DNA from: Anaerolineales bacterium
Lineage (GTDB): Bacteria > Chloroflexota > Anaerolineae > Anaerolineales > Villigracilaceae
Reading direction: 5' to 3'
Length of the DNA stretch: 64,000 nucleotides
NCBI GenBank assembly: GCA_016789305.1
Contig: JAEURJ010000016.1
Span: forward strand, 124,001 to 188,000
This document shows, piece by piece, positions 28,177 to 35,400 of the stretch. The notes beneath the pieces were generated by a model. It was not told the origin of the DNA. It did no database searches and saw nothing but the letters and a program-made list of their open reading frames with translations. The first letter of the stretch is position 1. Every line of letters begins with the position of its first letter. The position numbers and the translations under genes were made by a program.

Positions 28177-29847
28177 CTAAAACCCCTCCGCTACATATTC
28201 CCCCCATACCCCTCTAAGCGTATTGCAGATTTCTCCCAGTGTGATGTCATTCTCCACACATTCAATGAAGAGCGGCATCAAATTATCCGTACCCTTCGCC
28301 ACGGTCGCCAATTTCCCGAGCAACTCCGTCACTCTTTCCTTCTTTCTTCTTTCTCTTAATTCCTTCAACTTCGCCCGCTGACCCAGCTCAATCGACGGGT
28401 CCACCTGCAGGCGTTCCAACGTGAGGACTTCGTCCACGCTGAATTGATTGACGCCCACCACGATCTGCTCTTTGCGTTCGATCTCCTGCTGCGCGGCATA
28501 GGCGGCATTTTGAATTTCATTTTGCATATATCCGCGCTCGATGGATTGCAGTGCGCCACCCATCTCGTCGATCTTCGCGATGTAATCCAGCGCGCCTTTT
28601 TCGATTTCGTCGGTCAACTGCTCGATCAGATACGAACCCGCCAGCGGATCAATCGAGTCCGCCACGCCTGATTCGTAGGCGATGATCTGTTGGGTGCGCA
28701 GCGCCACACGCACGGATTTCTCCGTGGGCAGCCACAAGGCTTCGTCCATGCTGTTGGTATGTAAACTTTGAGTCCCGCCGAGGACGGCGGAAAGCGCTTG
28801 CAGAGTCACACGCACGACGTTGTTTTCAGGCTGCTGGGCGGTCAGCGTGGAGCCTGCGGTCTGCGTGTGGAAACGCAGCTGCCAGGAGGATGGTTTCTTC
28901 GCCTTGAAGCGTTCGCGCATGATTCTTGCCCACATGCGGCGTGCCGCGCGGAACTTGGCAACCTCTTCCAATAAATTGTTATGTGCGTTGAAGAAGAACG
29001 AGAGCTGTCCCGCGAAATCATCGATGTCGAGTCCCGCCTTCAATGCGGCCTCAACATATGCAATGCCATTCGCCAGCGTGAAGGCCACTTCCTGCACAGA
29101 GGTCGAGCCCGCTTCACGGATGTGATAACCCGAGATCGAGATCGTGTTCCAATACGGAACTTCCTTCGCGCAAAACGAAAAGATGTCGGTGATCAAGCGC
29201 ATCGAAGGCGCGGGTGGGAAGATATACGTCCCGCGCGCCACATATTCCTTGAGAATATCATTTTGAATTGTGCCGCGGAGCTGGTGCATGTCCGCACCTT
29301 GACGCTTTGCCACGGCAATGTACATCGCCAGCAGCACGCCCGCAGGCGCGTTGATCGTCATCGAAGTCGAAACCTTGTCGAGCGGGATCTGGTCGTACAA
29401 CTGCATCATGTCGTGAATGGACGAGATCGACACGCCCACCTTGCCCACCTCGCCCTGCGCGATGGGATCATCCGCATCGTATCCAATTTGAGTCGGCAGG
29501 TCGAACGCTACGCTCAGCCCCGTTTGGCCTTGTTGCAACAAATAGCGATATCTTTTATTTGACTCTTCCGCCGTCGAGAAGCCCGCATATTGACGCATGG
29601 TCCAGAAGCGCGAACGATACATCGTCGGCTGGACTCCGCGGGTATAGGGATATTCACCGGGGAAGCCGATGTTATTTAAATAGGATTCATCCACCGTAGG
29701 GACGGGGTCCCCCCGCCCAGGCAGCGCCACACGCGGGACCTCAATGCCTGCTGAAGTCTCGAAGCGCTCTTTCCGTTCCTTGAATTTGTCCAAAGACTTC
29801 TTGAGCGTGGATTCTTTCCATTTGTTGTATTGATCGTTGATTGTCAT
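28177..29847 (-). CDS. mcmA1: Methylmalonyl-CoA mutase, large (catalytic) subunit
   Basis: 556 residues, the usual length of the stand-alone catalytic subunit that lacks the B12-binding domain. It interconverts (R)-methylmalonyl-CoA and succinyl-CoA by an adenosylcobalamin radical mechanism. Motifs: [24 protein letters not shown] (catalytic Tyr of RQYAGF), [39 protein letters not shown] (substrate Arg), [12 protein letters not shown] (His), [10 protein letters not shown]. The Tyr and Arg are those of methylmalonyl- rather than isobutyryl-CoA mutases. The small B12-binding subunit must be encoded elsewhere. An inverted-repeat element lies upstream. Confidence 0.93.
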
Positions 29848-30067: not shown

Positions 30068-30466
30068 ATGGGAAATAAAACCTTGTTGTATCTCGGCGTT
30101 GGGGTATTGCTCTTCATCGGCGTATGCCTTTTCGGATATGGAATTCTCAGCATCATCGGCTCCACTTCTGCCCAGGGAGCTTTCTCCTGGTTTGGGGCGG
30201 GGCTTGCCTTTGCCTTGGTGGGAGCAGCATTTCTCGGCGGCGGCATCCTGCTGATCGTGCGGGCGCAGGCCCAGGGTCCGGCCGGAGGCGATCACGTCAC
30301 CTACAAGATCGACCTGCCATCCACAACAAAGATCGAACAAATGAAGTGCCGCAGCTGCGGCGGAAGCCTGACCGCGCAGAATGTCAAAATGCTGGCGGGC
30401 GCACCCACGGTGGAATGCCCGTTCTGCGGCACGACCTATCAATTAACGGAAGAACCGAAATGGTAA
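30068..30466 (+). CDS. Two-helix membrane protein with zinc ribbon
   Basis: 132 residues. Two transmembrane helices (LLYLGVGVLLFIGVCLFGYGIL and WFGAGLAFALVGAAFLGGGILLIV) are followed by a cytoplasmic zinc ribbon with CRSCGG and CPFCGT (two CxxC pairs 25 residues apart). The function is unknown. AAGGAG is present nine bases or so before ATG 30068. It is the first gene of an apparent five-gene operon with the DUF2207-like protein (10-base gap) and the radical SAM genes, so it may belong to the same system. Confidence 0.75.
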   Translation: MGNKTLLYLGVGVLLFIGVCLFGYGILSIIGSTSAQGAFSWFGAGLAFALVGAAFLGGGILLIVRAQAQGPAGGDHVTYKIDLPSTTKIEQMKCRSCGGSLTAQNVKMLAGAPTVECPFCGTTYQLTEEPKW

Positions 30467-30475
30467 AGGTGTCCC

Positions 30476-32128
30476 ATGAAATATAGAGTCGCCATTTTCT
30501 TCGCACTGTTGTTTGCATTCATCTCCGCGTTCAACGTCTCGGCGCAATCGTATTATTTCAGTCTCGACAAGGAAGTCGTGGATGTCTATTGGAACGCCGA
30601 TGGGACGATGTCGCTCGATTACCAGCTGACCTTTACCAACTGGCCCGGCTCGCACGCCATTGACTTCGTCGATATGGGCATGCCCAATGGAAACTTCGAC
30701 ATCAACAACGTCAAGGCGGAAGTGCAGGGCAGCCCGGTTTCCGTTTCGAAATCGGATTATCAAGGAAACGGCAGCGGCTTTGCCGTGGTGCTCGGCTCCC
30801 GGGCGATCCAACCCGGGCAGAATGGCACTGTACATGTGTATGTGGGGCACGTTGAAAGGGTCTTATACAAGGATGACCAGGACGAGAACTATGCCAGCGG
30901 AGTCTTCGCCCCGACCTATTTTGGAAGTCAGTATGTAACGGGGTTCACCGATCTTACGGTCACATTTCACCTGCCGCCCGGCGTAAAGACAACCGAACCG
31001 CGCTGGCATTCCGCCCCTGCGGGATTCCCTTCCGAACCGCAAACAGCGCTAGACTCGCAAGGGCTTGTCACCTATACCTGGCACAACGTCAATGCCAACG
31101 GGTCCACGCAGTATAAATTCGGGGCTTCGTTCCCAAAGAGCTACATCCCGGCAGACAGCATTGTCACCATTCAACTGCCTTCCATTTCAGTTTCATCGGA
31201 TACGGTCTATGCAACCGTATGTTTTGGGTTTGTGGGCTTCATGATATTCGGCGTCCCGATCATCACCGCGGTCAGCAACAACCGCCGAAAAATGAAATAC
31301 CTGCCGCCGAGGATCAGCATCGAAGGTCACGGCATCAAACGCGGGTTGACCGCCGTGGAGGCGGCGATCCTGATGGAACAACCGCTCGACAAAGTGATGA
31401 CCATGATCCTGTTCGGCACGATCAAGAAGAACGCCGCAGAAGTGATCACCCGCGATCCGCTTGAATTGCAGGTGACCTCTCCCTTACCGGAAGGCTTGCA
31501 TGAATATGAATTGAACTTCCTAAATGCATTCAAGGAAGACGATGCACGGGTTCGACGAAATAAATTACAGGAGATGACGATCAAACTGGTCCGTTCGGTC
31601 TCGCAAAAGTTGAAAGGCTTCAGCCGCCGCGAAACACTGGACTATTACAAGAGCATCATGGAAAAGGCATGGCAGCAGGTGGAAGCCGCCGATACCCCCG
31701 AAGTGAAAAGCAAGATGTTCGAAGAAGCCCTCGAGTGGACGATGCTCGACCGCGATTACGACGACCGCACTCGACGCGTCTTCCACGGTCCGATCTATGC
31801 TCCCACATGGTGGAATCGCTACGACCCGGTCATGAGGGGCGGCTCCAATATTCCACGAACCACTTTCGCGCCTTCGTCCAGCAGAGGTTCAAGCGCATTA
31901 CCCGGCGCAGACTTCGCCGCATCCATGGTCACCGGCGTACAAACTTTCTCGCAGAAGGTCATTGGCAATGTCAATGAGTTTACGGGTCGCGTTACCAATG
32001 TCACCAACCCGCCGCCTCCTCCTCCGAAATCCTCCGGTGGATCTGGCGGCAGCAGCGGGGGCCGTTCGTGTGCGTGCGCTTGTGCATGTGCGGGCTGTGC
32101 CTGTGCCTGTGCCGGCGGCGGGCGGTAA
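30476..32128 (+). CDS. DUF2207-like membrane protein with Cys-Ala repeat tail (candidate modification substrate)
   Basis: 550 residues. Signal peptide or anchor at 1-24; an extracellular beta domain (about 25-240); a transmembrane helix near 243-262 (TVCFGFVGFMIFGVPIITAV); then a cytoplasmic region starting YLPPRISIEGHGIKRGLTAVEAAIL, like the C-terminal part of DUF2207 proteins, and helical to about 450. After a PPPPPP and Gly/Ser linker the protein ends CACACACAGCACACAGGGR, with seven cysteines in 19 residues. Ala and Cys codons vary along the tail, so it is kept at the protein level and is not a simple DNA repeat. The tail should be cytoplasmic, accessible to the radical SAM enzyme encoded 12 bases downstream. 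The role of the N-terminal domain is unknown. Confidence 0.85.
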   Translation: MKYRVAIFFALLFAFISAFNVSAQSYYFSLDKEVVDVYWNADGTMSLDYQLTFTNWPGSHAIDFVDMGMPNGNFDINNVKAEVQGSPVSVSKSDYQGNGSGFAVVLGSRAIQPGQNGTVHVYVGHVERVLYKDDQDENYASGVFAPTYFGSQYVTGFTDLTVTFHLPPGVKTTEPRWHSAPAGFPSEPQTALDSQGLVTYTWHNVNANGSTQYKFGASFPKSYIPADSIVTIQLPSISVSSDTVYATVCFGFVGFMIFGVPIITAVSNNRRKMKYLPPRISIEGHGIKRGLTAVEAAILMEQPLDKVMTMILFGTIKKNAAEVITRDPLELQVTSPLPEGLHEYELNFLNAFKEDDARVRRNKLQEMTIKLVRSVSQKLKGFSRRETLDYYKSIMEKAWQQVEAADTPEVKSKMFEEALEWTMLDRDYDDRTRRVFHGPIYAPTWWNRYDPVMRGGSNIPRTTFAPSSSRGSSALPGADFAASMVTGVQTFSQKVIGNVNEFTGRVTNVTNPPPPPPKSSGGSGGSSGGRSCACACACAGCACACAGGGR

Positions 32129-32140
32129 GAGAAGGTTGCT

Positions 32141-33514
32141 ATGAATTTATTGAACGAGTTGTTTAATCGTAGGTCGACCGTATCGGCTCCCATTCCCGGC
32201 TTGTATCATTTCCTCAAAGAGAATGAATTTGAAAAATCACGCATTCACCTGCGCATCGACCCGGATGGCACCGGGACGTTAATCGTCAATGCCAGCAGTG
32301 TGATGCATCTGAATCCAACCGCTGCGATGATGGCGTATCTCATATTGAAAGAAGTGGAAGAACAGGCGGCCATTCAGTCCATTCAAAAAACATACAAGGT
32401 ATCAAGAAAACAGGCACGCGAGGATTATTCCGCATTCATCCCGCATCTTTCCTCCTTGTTGGATGGCGCCTGCCCGGTTCATGAACTGGATCTCGAATCC
32501 ATCATGCCGTTCAGCGCACGTCCCACCGCGCCCTATCGCATGGACCTGGCCGTCACCTATCGCTGCAACAACGATTGCGCGCATTGCTACAACGCCCGCG
32601 AACGGAACTTCCCCGAGCTCAGCACCCAGGAATGGTTCAGAGTCATCGACCGCTTATGGGACCTGGGCGTGCCGCACATCGTTTTCACCGGTGGCGAAGC
32701 CACACTGCGAAACGACCTTCCACAATTGATTGAACACGCGGAGAAAAATGGGCAGATCACCGGCTTGAACACGAACGCCCGCCGCTTGATCGACGCCGAT
32801 TACGTCCGTCAGCTTACCGATGCAGGCCTCGACCATGTGCAGATCACGGTCGAATCCTGTGTGCCAGAGATCCACGATGAAATGATGCGCGCCAAAGGCG
32901 CGTTCAAACAAACCATCACCGGTTTGAACAATGTTTTGAAGACCAAGCTGTATGTGATGACCAATACCACCATGCTGCGCACGAACGTCCATACCATCCC
33001 CGCCACATTGGATTTTCTTGCAGACATCGGCGTACCGACCATCGGATTGAACGCGCTGATCTATTCGGGTCACGGCTTGACCGTTGGAACGGGTCTGCGC
33101 GAAAGTGAATTACAGCCCATCCTTGACCTTGCCACGCACAAGACCGCCGAACATGGGCAAAAACTCATTTGGTACACGCCCACGCAATACTGCGAGTTTG
33201 ACCCCACTGCGAATAATCTTGGAGTCAAAGGCTGCACGGCCGCACTATACAGCATGTGCATTGAATCCAACGGGGATGTGCTCCCCTGCCAATCGTATTA
33301 CCATTCACTGGGCAACATGCTCAGTGACTCATGGGACTCGATCTGGAATCATAGCCTGTCTGTGCAGCTGCGCGAGCGGCAGAACCTGCCATTCAAATGC
33401 GAGACCTGTTCCCTCGTCGCAGAGTGCGGCGGCGGATGCCCGCTTAATTTCGAGAATCACCGCGAACAATATAAAGTAAATGCGGAAGTCATTCCGCTCT
33501 CCGTCCTGAATTGA
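32141..33514 (+). CDS. PqqD-like/radical SAM/SPASM peptide-modifying enzyme
   Basis: 457 residues. Residues about 33-108 resemble PqqD/RRE peptide-binding domains (LRIDPDGTGTLIVNASSVMHLN, then a helical part). The radical SAM core starts at about 133 with CNNDCAHC (Cys142, 146, 149 for the 4Fe-4S cluster) and has the SAM motif FTGGEATLR. The C-terminal SPASM region has GCTAALYSMC, LPCQSYYH, CETCSLVAECGGGCP, enough cysteines for two auxiliary clusters. Enzymes of this build (PqqE, AlbA, MftC type) make C-C or thioether bonds in peptides. Neighbourhood suggests the Cys-Ala tail of the upstream protein as substrate. AGAAGG precedes the start. Confidence 0.9.
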   Translation: MNLLNELFNRRSTVSAPIPGLYHFLKENEFEKSRIHLRIDPDGTGTLIVNASSVMHLNPTAAMMAYLILKEVEEQAAIQSIQKTYKVSRKQAREDYSAFIPHLSSLLDGACPVHELDLESIMPFSARPTAPYRMDLAVTYRCNNDCAHCYNARERNFPELSTQEWFRVIDRLWDLGVPHIVFTGGEATLRNDLPQLIEHAEKNGQITGLNTNARRLIDADYVRQLTDAGLDHVQITVESCVPEIHDEMMRAKGAFKQTITGLNNVLKTKLYVMTNTTMLRTNVHTIPATLDFLADIGVPTIGLNALIYSGHGLTVGTGLRESELQPILDLATHKTAEHGQKLIWYTPTQYCEFDPTANNLGVKGCTAALYSMCIESNGDVLPCQSYYHSLGNMLSDSWDSIWNHSLSVQLRERQNLPFKCETCSLVAECGGGCPLNFENHREQYKVNAEVIPLSVLN

Positions 33515-33531
33515 ATTCCATTGGAGTCGCC

Positions 33532-34671
33532 ATGAAATTATTCAATCGCCTTGCCGATCGTTTTGCAAAAGTTGAACCACTGCCCGTTGGGACCCATCAC
33601 CTGCAAACCACACAGGATGAAAAACCGTATCGCGTCCACCTGCGTCTGCAGCAGGACGGCTCGGGCGTATTGATCGTCAACGCTTCCACGGTGCTGCAGT
33701 TGAATCCCACCGCCGCAGAGTGTGCATTTCATTTCATCAAAGGAAGCACGCCGGAGGAAGCTGCAAAACAAATTTCTACTCGCTACCGCATCAACAAAAG
33801 GGTTGCGCTGGAAGACTTCAACAACTTTACCGAACAAATTCATACCTTGATCTCCACGCCGGATCTGGACCCCGTCTCTTTTATGGGCTTTGAGCAGGCC
33901 GCGCCTCATTCCACAGAGCTCAGCGTACCGCTGCGCCTCGATTGTGCACTGACCTACCGCCTGCCTGAAAACACACAAGCCGAATATGCGCCTGTCAAAC
34001 GAGTCACACGTGAACTGAGTACTGATGAATGGAAGATCATTTTAAACAAAGCCTGGGGGATTGGGATTCCACACATCACCTTCACCGGCGGAGAAGCCAC
34101 CCTGCGCGACGATCTCCCTGAATTGATCGCCCACGCCGAGAGCATCGGTCAGGTCTGCGGATTGCTCACCGATGGCATGAAGCTTGCCGATAAAAAATAC
34201 CTCGATCAACTGCTGAAAACCGGGCTCGATCATATTTTGTTCATCCTCCAGCCTGAGAAGAAGGAATCCTGGACGGCGCTTGAAACGATCATGCCTGAGG
34301 ATATCTTTGTCACAGTACATATCACTTTGAACAAAAATAGCGGAAACATGGGACAAGTACTTGAAAAGCTGGCAAGCTTGAAAGTACAAAGCCTTTCTCT
34401 TACGCTCGCGGATGATTCCCTTGATGAAACATATAACGCTCTGCGCGATCAGGCCGCGGAACTGGGTCTCTCGTTGAAATTCGATCTGCCCGTTCCGTAT
34501 TCTGCCAATCATCCGATTGCTTTTGAAACACTGGAAGATCATATTCCCAATGGCGCAGGCAGGGCCTGGTTGTACGTGGAACCGGATGGCGATGTATTGC
34601 CGGCGCAGGGCAAGGCCGATCAGGTAATGGGAAACTTCCTGCGTGATGAGTGGAACGCGATCCGTTCTTAA
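33532..34671 (+). CDS. Radical SAM-like paralogue lacking all cluster cysteines
   Basis: 379 residues. It aligns with the upstream enzyme from residue 1: PqqD-like region (LRLQQDGSGVLIVNASTVLQLNPTAA), LDCALTYRL at the place of TYRCNNDC, then GIPHITFTGGEATLRDDLPELIAHAE nearly unchanged. The three radical SAM cysteines are replaced and the SPASM end (VEPDGDVLPAQGKADQVMGNF) has lost its cysteines. It cannot bind the iron-sulfur clusters, so it is probably a non-catalytic partner, for example for peptide binding. It is intact, without frameshift, which argues against decay. GGAG lies five bases before ATG 33532. Confidence 0.85.
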   Translation: MKLFNRLADRFAKVEPLPVGTHHLQTTQDEKPYRVHLRLQQDGSGVLIVNASTVLQLNPTAAECAFHFIKGSTPEEAAKQISTRYRINKRVALEDFNNFTEQIHTLISTPDLDPVSFMGFEQAAPHSTELSVPLRLDCALTYRLPENTQAEYAPVKRVTRELSTDEWKIILNKAWGIGIPHITFTGGEATLRDDLPELIAHAESIGQVCGLLTDGMKLADKKYLDQLLKTGLDHILFILQPEKKESWTALETIMPEDIFVTVHITLNKNSGNMGQVLEKLASLKVQSLSLTLADDSLDETYNALRDQAAELGLSLKFDLPVPYSANHPIAFETLEDHIPNGAGRAWLYVEPDGDVLPAQGKADQVMGNFLRDEWNAIRS

Positions 34672-35400
34672 ATGAATTGGCACAAGCGATATGCCCAGCA
34701 AGGTCAATGGACTCGCGACCTGCGGGCTTATATTTTCGACAAAATAAAACTGAAGAATACAGATCGCGTGCTTGAAGTGGGCTGCGGGACAGGGGCGATT
34801 CTCTCCGAAATCCCAACGCATCCCACGCTTCATGGTCTGGACCTTGATCCTGCTGCGCTCGCCGAATGCAGATTCCACGCCCCAACCGCTTCGTTGATCC
34901 GCGGGGACGCGCTTGCGCTCCCCTATCCCGATCGATCCTTTGATATCGTCTACTGTCACTTTCTGCTGTTGTGGGTACAGGATCCATTGCAGGCTTTGCT
35001 GGAGATGAGGCGGGTTGCAAAACAAAACGGTCACATCATTGCATTTGCAGAGCCCGATTATTTAAATCGAATCGACAAACCCGACGAACTCTCCAAATTG
35101 GGGAAATGGCAAACCGAAGCGCTGATCCGCCAGGGCGCGGACCCGGGTTTGGGTTCGCGGCTCGCTGAATTATTTTTTCAGGCTGGGATAAAAACAATAG
35201 AAACAGGAACAATTCAAAGCGGGGAAAAAGAAGCGTCGCCCGAAGAGTGGGAAATGGAATGGGCGGTGATCGAATCCGATCTGGCAGGATCAATTTCAGA
35301 TGCAGACATCCAAAAAATGAAGCAACTGGATGGACAAGCCCGCGCGCAAAGCCTGCGGTCGTTAAATGTACCCACCTACTTTGCCTGGGGAACCTCCTGA
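34672..35400 (+). CDS. SAM-dependent methyltransferase of the radical SAM operon
   Basis: 242 residues, class I fold: VLEVGCGTGAILSEI (motif I), HGLDLDPAALAECR (motif II), IRGDALALPYPDRSFDIVYCHFLLLWV (motifs III-IV), NGHIIAFAEPDY. It belongs to the Methyltransf_11 group. The ATG follows the preceding TAA with no gap, so it is translationally coupled and probably works on the same substrate, for instance methylating the modified tail or its C-terminus. Independent small-molecule function cannot be excluded. Confidence 0.85.
   Translation: MNWHKRYAQQGQWTRDLRAYIFDKIKLKNTDRVLEVGCGTGAILSEIPTHPTLHGLDLDPAALAECRFHAPTASLIRGDALALPYPDRSFDIVYCHFLLLWVQDPLQALLEMRRVAKQNGHIIAFAEPDYLNRIDKPDELSKLGKWQTEALIRQGADPGLGSRLAELFFQAGIKTIETGTIQSGEKEASPEEWEMEWAVIESDLAGSISDADIQKMKQLDGQARAQSLRSLNVPTYFAWGTS

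Follow-up and report, generated by a model that had tools for sequence, protein, structure and literature searches.

A membrane protein with a near-invariant Cys-Ala tail and its co-occurring radical SAM/SPASM enzyme in Chloroflexota, a candidate system for in-place modification of the tail

Introduction

The locus described here raises the question of whether a radical SAM/SPASM enzyme modifies the Cys-rich tail of a full-size membrane protein in place. It occupies a segment (30068-35400) of a 64,000-nt stretch of contig JAEURJ010000016.1 of an Anaerolineales bacterium, and the whole stretch is referred to as the window. To our knowledge, work on radical SAM maturases has dealt almost exclusively with short peptides, the precursors of antibiotics or cofactors. 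The coupled candidate substrate in this locus is part of an intact membrane protein: an invariant tail that is conserved across the class and occurs in one genome outside it. Such invariance points to a defined structure that has a role in the cell.

Organization of the locus

The genes given in a preliminary description of the segment were all confirmed, with their positions and spacings (Table 1). The radical SAM enzyme (RS) starts 12 bases past the stop codon of the membrane protein (D22), the pseudo-radical-SAM paralogue (PS) lies directly after RS, and the methyltransferase (MT) follows PS with zero spacing, the gaps in the window operon being 9, 12, 0 and 56 bases. The PS reading frame opens at 33511 and the likely ATG start is at 33532. 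The C terminus of D22 is RSCACACACAGCACACAGGGR, the ending of the window gene also being given as SCACACACAGCACACAGGGR, and the linker that precedes the tail is Pro, then Gly/Ser rich, as had been claimed. A divergent gene for a methylmalonyl-CoA mutase N-terminal domain (28177-29847) is a conserved upstream neighbor in most Cys-Ala loci.

Table 1. Features of the locus, in positions of the window
Feature	Position	Strand	Description
ZR	30068..30466	+	small membrane protein, 2 TM helices, C-terminal CxxC/CxxC zinc ribbon, probably cytoplasmic
D22	30476..32128	+	550 aa; proposed full-size substrate; domain order: signal peptide, extracellular beta domain, one TM, cytoplasmic winged-helix/helical domain, linker, Cys-Ala tail
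Cys-Ala tail	32069..32125	+	CACACACAGCACACAGGGR; last 19 residues of D22, 7 Cys
RS	32141..33514	+	PqqD-like RRE + radical SAM + SPASM; proposed tail-modifying enzyme
PS	33532..34671	+	pseudo-radical-SAM paralogue; proposed helper/substrate-presenting subunit
MT	34672..35400	+	class I SAM-dependent methyltransferase
P6	35457..36470	+	conserved protein, no assigned fold, one C-terminal TM; accessory
P10	36565..37602	+	lipoprotein-like, HEYGH, weakly like zinc metallopeptidases; loosely associated

Architecture and family of D22

An AlphaFold2 model of D22 built on a 36-sequence alignment (mean pLDDT 81, pTM 0.45) had a signal helix, a beta domain (residues 28-220), a TM helix (241-271) and a cytoplasmic winged-helix/helical part, with a conserved helix (477-510) followed by a disordered linker and the tail at the C-terminal end. 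The predicted topology has one N-terminal signal and one TM helix (about residues 241-271) followed by basic residues, and hydropathy gave no second TM helix. Since there is only one TM helix besides the N-terminal signal, the tail is predicted to lie on the cytoplasmic side, in agreement with the topology proposed earlier.

D22 itself matched no family in Pfam or NCBIfam, and no protein exceeded the gathering score of PF09972 (DUF2207) in the window's own genome or in P0002. A sister family that carries a different, CHSA-type tail (see below) matched both DUF2207 and TIGR04222, with lowest E values of 3.6e-7 and 6.3e-10, respectively, and was aligned with D22 by hhalign at a probability of 99.9%. 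The label DUF2207-like, under which the protein had been described, holds as a remote homology of the head domain by way of the sister family, and not as a match of the window protein, which is below Pfam detection for DUF2207 (PF09972/PF20990). A relationship to OST1/ribophorin or to M1 aminopeptidases was rejected, the fold matches being to their beta domains only (TM about 0.25), a domain-level resemblance. At four loci (L063:5312-6163, L066, L067 and L068), D22 paralogues that consist of the head alone (275-283 aa), with neither Cys nor tail, are encoded just upstream of the tailed protein.

Conservation of the Cys-Ala tail

In a survey of 80 genome loci, each orthologue whose C terminus is intact ends in (CA)n-G-(CA)3-GGGR-stop, where n is 4 in most cases and 3 or 5 in some; the linker before the tail, in contrast, varies freely. 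The only tail-less homologues in this survey were the four head-only paralogues and one broken gene, L027. The tail was identical in amino acid sequence in 115 distinct tail genes, a set that by construction contains exact tails only, the rarity of departures resting on the 80-locus survey. In these genes the diversity at the second codon positions of the tail was 0, the pairwise difference at third codon positions was 54.5% of sites, and all six Arg codons were in use for the final Arg. Because the third positions vary while the amino acids stay fixed, the tail is under selection at the level of the protein and not of the DNA.

A pattern search, on which the single-tail count rests, found the Cys-Ala tail once in the 4.88 Mb genome of the window, and the reversed control gave zero matches. 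This control and the silent codon variation rule out a low-complexity or DNA-level repeat artifact. A reading of the tail from the opposite strand (minus ORF 31819-32193) was ruled out as well, the variation falling at the plus-frame third positions. Variant tailed proteins were seen at two loci. A second tailed protein of 255 aa, with the same tail and without the extracellular domain, lies between D22 and RS at L006:7215-7982. A 1139-aa ORF (L159:990-4409, genome G107) has a Ser/Thr kinase and AAA/TPR-like head fused in frame to the C-terminal ~130 residues of D22, carries the exact Cys-Ala tail and has RS downstream, the alternatives being a genuine domain swap and a chimeric MAG.

The radical SAM/SPASM enzyme

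The PqqD-like, radical SAM and SPASM domains attributed to RS all exceeded their Pfam cut-offs, the N-terminal PqqD-like RRE with 26.9 bits (PF05402, cut-off 23.4) and the SPASM domain with 37.8 bits (PF13186, cut-off 21.5). The radical SAM motif is CNNDCAHC (CX3CX2C) and the SPASM motif is CX12GX4C...CX2CX5CX3C, in which the last SPASM Cys is absent; CX3CX2C and the SPASM motif occurred together in 123 RS proteins. No NCBIfam equivalog reached its cut-off. The top scores were spread across PqqE, heme and peptide maturases, each well under cut-off, and no small precursor of the PqqA type was found in the operon gaps, so that RS was not assigned to PqqE. The chemistry of RS is not readable from its family, because the best NCBIfam score, that of PqqE (TIGR02109), is far under the cut-off (128.5 bits vs 381.35) and there is no close characterized homologue. 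The best sequence match in the PDB was SkfB (E 6.7e-22, residues 29-411, RRE included), a sactisynthase that forms thioethers (PMC6231123).

Coupling of the tail and RS

Among 61 relatives, 40 had both D22 and RS, 20 had neither, one had RS only and none had D22 only (Fisher 3e-15, a statistic that ignores shared ancestry). In the window's own genus both genes were present in 26 of 37 genomes and neither in 10, and since genomes with both and with neither occur in the same genus, D22 and RS appear to have been lost jointly more than once. Of the 298 class genomes searched, 27 contained the exact tail, and each of these had RS at 440 bits or more. Three further genomes of the class had RS at this level and no exact tail, two of them with RS at a contig end. 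RS was present and no tail was found in G065 and G215, MAGs that are 85% and 68% complete, and G066 was at a contig edge. Both D22 and RS were kept in G231 and G158 though they lie on different contigs, and one genome outside the class yet within the phylum Chloroflexota (G362) had the Cys-Ala tail together with RS.

The genomes surveyed were Chloroflexota, many of them MAGs, plus viral contigs, and the counts share ancestry. A widespread occurrence of the tail without the radical SAM gene had been named beforehand as evidence against the proposed modification system; it was looked for, and no genome with the Cys-Ala tail and without RS was found among those surveyed. The Cys-Ala tail had no matches in the viral contigs, and the CHSA pattern matches there were not tail genes beside RS. 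It is well supported that the Cys-Ala-tailed membrane protein occurs in many Chloroflexota and always together with RS. The earlier interpretation of the locus as a modification system is supported by this co-occurrence and by the shift of the tail sequence with the enzyme clade, set out in the next section.

Short peptides are the substrates of most PqqD/SPASM enzymes, and RS might act on an unannotated small peptide of an ordinary RiPP cluster, in which D22 with its tail would serve for immunity or regulation. However, the gaps between the core genes of the window are too short for a hidden precursor, the gap ORFs of the 80 loci formed no conserved family and no recurrent Cys-rich small ORF was found among them. 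The only Cys-rich terminus in the window operon sits on the 550-aa membrane protein, and a short leader-core precursor of the sactipeptide type was not found there. Moreover, D22 and RS, usually with the zinc-ribbon protein, are what both tail types share. This explanation is already mostly refuted, and we regard it as highly improbable.

Other tails accompany other RS clades

The RS proteins of a second clade are about 42% identical and are paired with Cys-Ala tails that have the Gly elsewhere, mostly (CA)3-G-(CA)4-GGGR. A Cys-Ala tail was present in 16 of 18 clade-II genomes, the remaining two loci being broken by contig ends; two of the 16 (G044 and G057) had the clade-I tail instead. Clade II also has an RS paralogue that has lost CX3CX2C and retained the SPASM Cys (CX2CX5CX3C) in 6/6 cases (L150, L151, L152, L190, L192 and L203). 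Judged by their motifs these proteins look like a half-way pseudo-enzyme, although all six sit on a separate long branch in the tree.

A third clade, about 33% identical and forming one side of a branch with 100/100 support, is encoded directly downstream of the remote D22 homologue. The tail of this homologue is a near-invariant (CHSA)n repeat of ~55 residues that contains 13 Cys and multiple His and was almost unchanged over 14 aligned proteins. A search for the CHSA pattern across the class matched 32 genomes, 12 of which had given no RS match at the earlier threshold. In 10 of these 12 RS was immediately downstream, and in the other 2 the tail gene was at a contig end; the 10/10 readable loci are a test of the coupling between CHSA tail and RS on loci outside those used to propose it. 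G118 kept both the CHSA tail and RS on separate contigs.

Tail type tracks the RS clade, Cys-Ala tails occurring with clades I and II and CHSA tails with clade III. Two tail sequences with two enzyme clades on homologous heads provide a natural experiment in substrate recognition. The same comparison bears on whether the tail is modified at all. A tail with 7 Cys, or with 13 Cys and multiple His, could bind metal unmodified, and a zinc-ribbon membrane protein is present in every full-length operon, so the tail may be a metal or Fe-S binding terminus, with RS co-occurring for another reason, for instance because it draws electrons or a cluster from the tail, or because its substrate is a small molecule. 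The PqqD-like domain of RS resembles an RRE, the mark of enzymes that act on ribosomal peptides, and it is against an unmodified tail, as is the switch of tail sequence with RS clade; we judge the unmodified terminus to be unlikely.

Proposed mechanism

The reading that we favor, with fairly good confidence, is that RS acts in place on the cytoplasmic tail of the full-size membrane protein D22, with PS as a helper. D22 would be made full-size as a single-pass protein with the beta domain outside, one TM helix, and the winged-helix/helical domain inside, and the tail would stay in the cytoplasm as the substrate of RS. The N-terminal PqqD-like RRE of RS may be what binds D22, with the conserved helix ahead of the linker as a possible site, and radical SAM chemistry could then convert the tail to a polycyclic, thioether-bridged terminus, with bonds from Cys sulfur to the neighboring Ala carbon. 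PS, with its PqqD region retained and its cluster ligands gone, would be a non-catalytic partner, and MT possibly adds methyl groups. Neither cleavage nor export would take place, and the product would be D22 itself, still in the membrane, with a tail made rigid or metal/redox-active. Our best guess is that the modified tail is a membrane-anchored metal-binding or redox-sensing terminus.

Thioether formation is the likeliest chemistry, although we give it only an even chance. It is favored because of the match to SkfB and because Cys is the reactive residue repeated in both tails. Ala is a known thioether acceptor in RumC1 (PMC6779426), and the cross-linking of a large protein by QhpD shows that a whole protein can be the substrate of such an enzyme (PMC8172795). 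On the other hand, AlbA rejects Ala as a replacement acceptor (PMC8172795), and the missing last SPASM Cys of RS likewise counts against a thioether.

RS might instead modify the tail by another reaction, such as Cys oxidation, C-C bond formation, epimerization or decarboxylation. Anaerobic sulfatase-maturating enzymes oxidize Cys to formylglycine, SPASM enzymes in general catalyze many reactions, and the family scores of RS are spread, all well under cut-off. In addition, alternating Cys-Ala is unlike the sactipeptides known to us, and the combination was not found in the open-access literature. Two observations stand against these reactions: 1) the best PDB match of RS, RRE included, is a sactisynthase, and 2) Cys, with Ala, is the residue repeated in both the Cys-Ala and the CHSA tails, which fits sulfur chemistry. 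We consider a non-thioether modification possible but rather doubtful.

Relation to known systems

In the open-access literature we found no description of the Cys-Ala/RS system or of the CHSA sister system, no paper that joins DUF2207 or such Cys tails with radical SAM enzymes, and none on sactipeptides in Anaerolineae. The closest published idea concerns the Cys-rich tails of TIGR04222 membrane proteins encoded near MNIO (DUF692) enzymes, for which in-place modification was proposed (PMC12452194). In both systems a membrane protein has a C-terminal tail of low complexity that is rich in Cys, and a peptide-modifying metalloenzyme is encoded beside it. The head domains are also related, since the heads of the CHSA-tailed proteins match TIGR04222. 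D22 did not match TIGR04222, while 12 of 14 members of the sister family did at E <= 0.01, one member scoring 17.5 bits against a cut-off of 43. The two systems differ in that 1) the enzyme is a radical SAM/SPASM protein here and an MNIO there, 2) the tail is predicted to be cytoplasmic here and periplasmic there, and 3) the tails described here hardly vary and RS accompanies the Cys-Ala tail in every genome that has it, whereas MNIO is missing from a third of TIGR04222 genomes (PMC12452194). No MNIO (PF05114) was found in the window's genome. D22 and RS can be seen as the radical SAM equivalent of the TIGR04222/MNIO pairs that were proposed.

QhpD, which acts on QhpC in the maturation of quinohemoprotein amine dehydrogenase, is a SPASM radical SAM enzyme that cross-links Cys of a full-size protein, but QhpC is a subunit of an enzyme and its acceptors are Asp/Glu (PMC8172795), whereas D22 is a membrane protein with a repetitive terminal tail that has no acidic residues in its Cys-Ala form. 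The sactipeptide maturases SkfB, AlbA and RumMC share the layout of RRE, radical SAM and SPASM domains with RS; their substrates, however, are short leader-core peptides and the candidate substrate here is an intact membrane protein. The targets of the ACGX system bear short Cys-containing repeats that resemble the tails described here, and the ACGX system protein (TIGR04340) is also a radical SAM/SPASM enzyme, but RS scored 67 bits against a cut-off of 400 and is not a member.

A broader proposal, which we put forward tentatively and at somewhat less than even confidence, is that of a "tail-writing" family. Its radical SAM enzymes would equip full-size membrane proteins with a structure that is multi-ring or metal/redox-active, built on a C-terminal tail of fixed sequence. 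Two or more tail sequences that differ widely, among them Cys-Ala and CHSA, would be served by separate clades, and the modified tail would be a new protein-built cofactor or sensor.

Accessory proteins

PS had been described as a dead, cysteine-less copy of RS. It has three Cys (71, 145 and 216), so that cysteine-less is not literally correct, but none is at the CX3CX2C or SPASM sites, and both cluster motifs were missing in 81 of 81 orthologues examined, so that the loss of the cluster ligands is confirmed; the PqqD region is retained. PS, together with the clade-II paralogue that lacks the SAM-cluster site and keeps the SPASM Cys, suggests steps toward a helper subunit. The methyltransferase call at zero spacing also held.

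In the full-length Cys-Ala loci (n=43), ZR, D22, RS and PS were present in 43/43, MT in 36, P6 in 30 and P10 in 23. Neither PS nor MT was found in the CHSA-tail loci (0/29 each), 24 of which have a zinc-ribbon protein with 2 TM helices nearby. PS and MT are accessory and confined to the Cys-Ala branch, and because both are absent from clade-III loci they are not essential to the principle. A fold search with P6 gave no match below E 0.001. The HEYGH lipoprotein P10 is the metallopeptidase-like protein near 23/43 Cys-Ala loci; the metallopeptidase-like neighbors of CHSA loci include an InhA-like MAM-domain protein (L209:9513-11528) and HExxH proteins of more than 550 aa, the latter in 15 of 29 loci.
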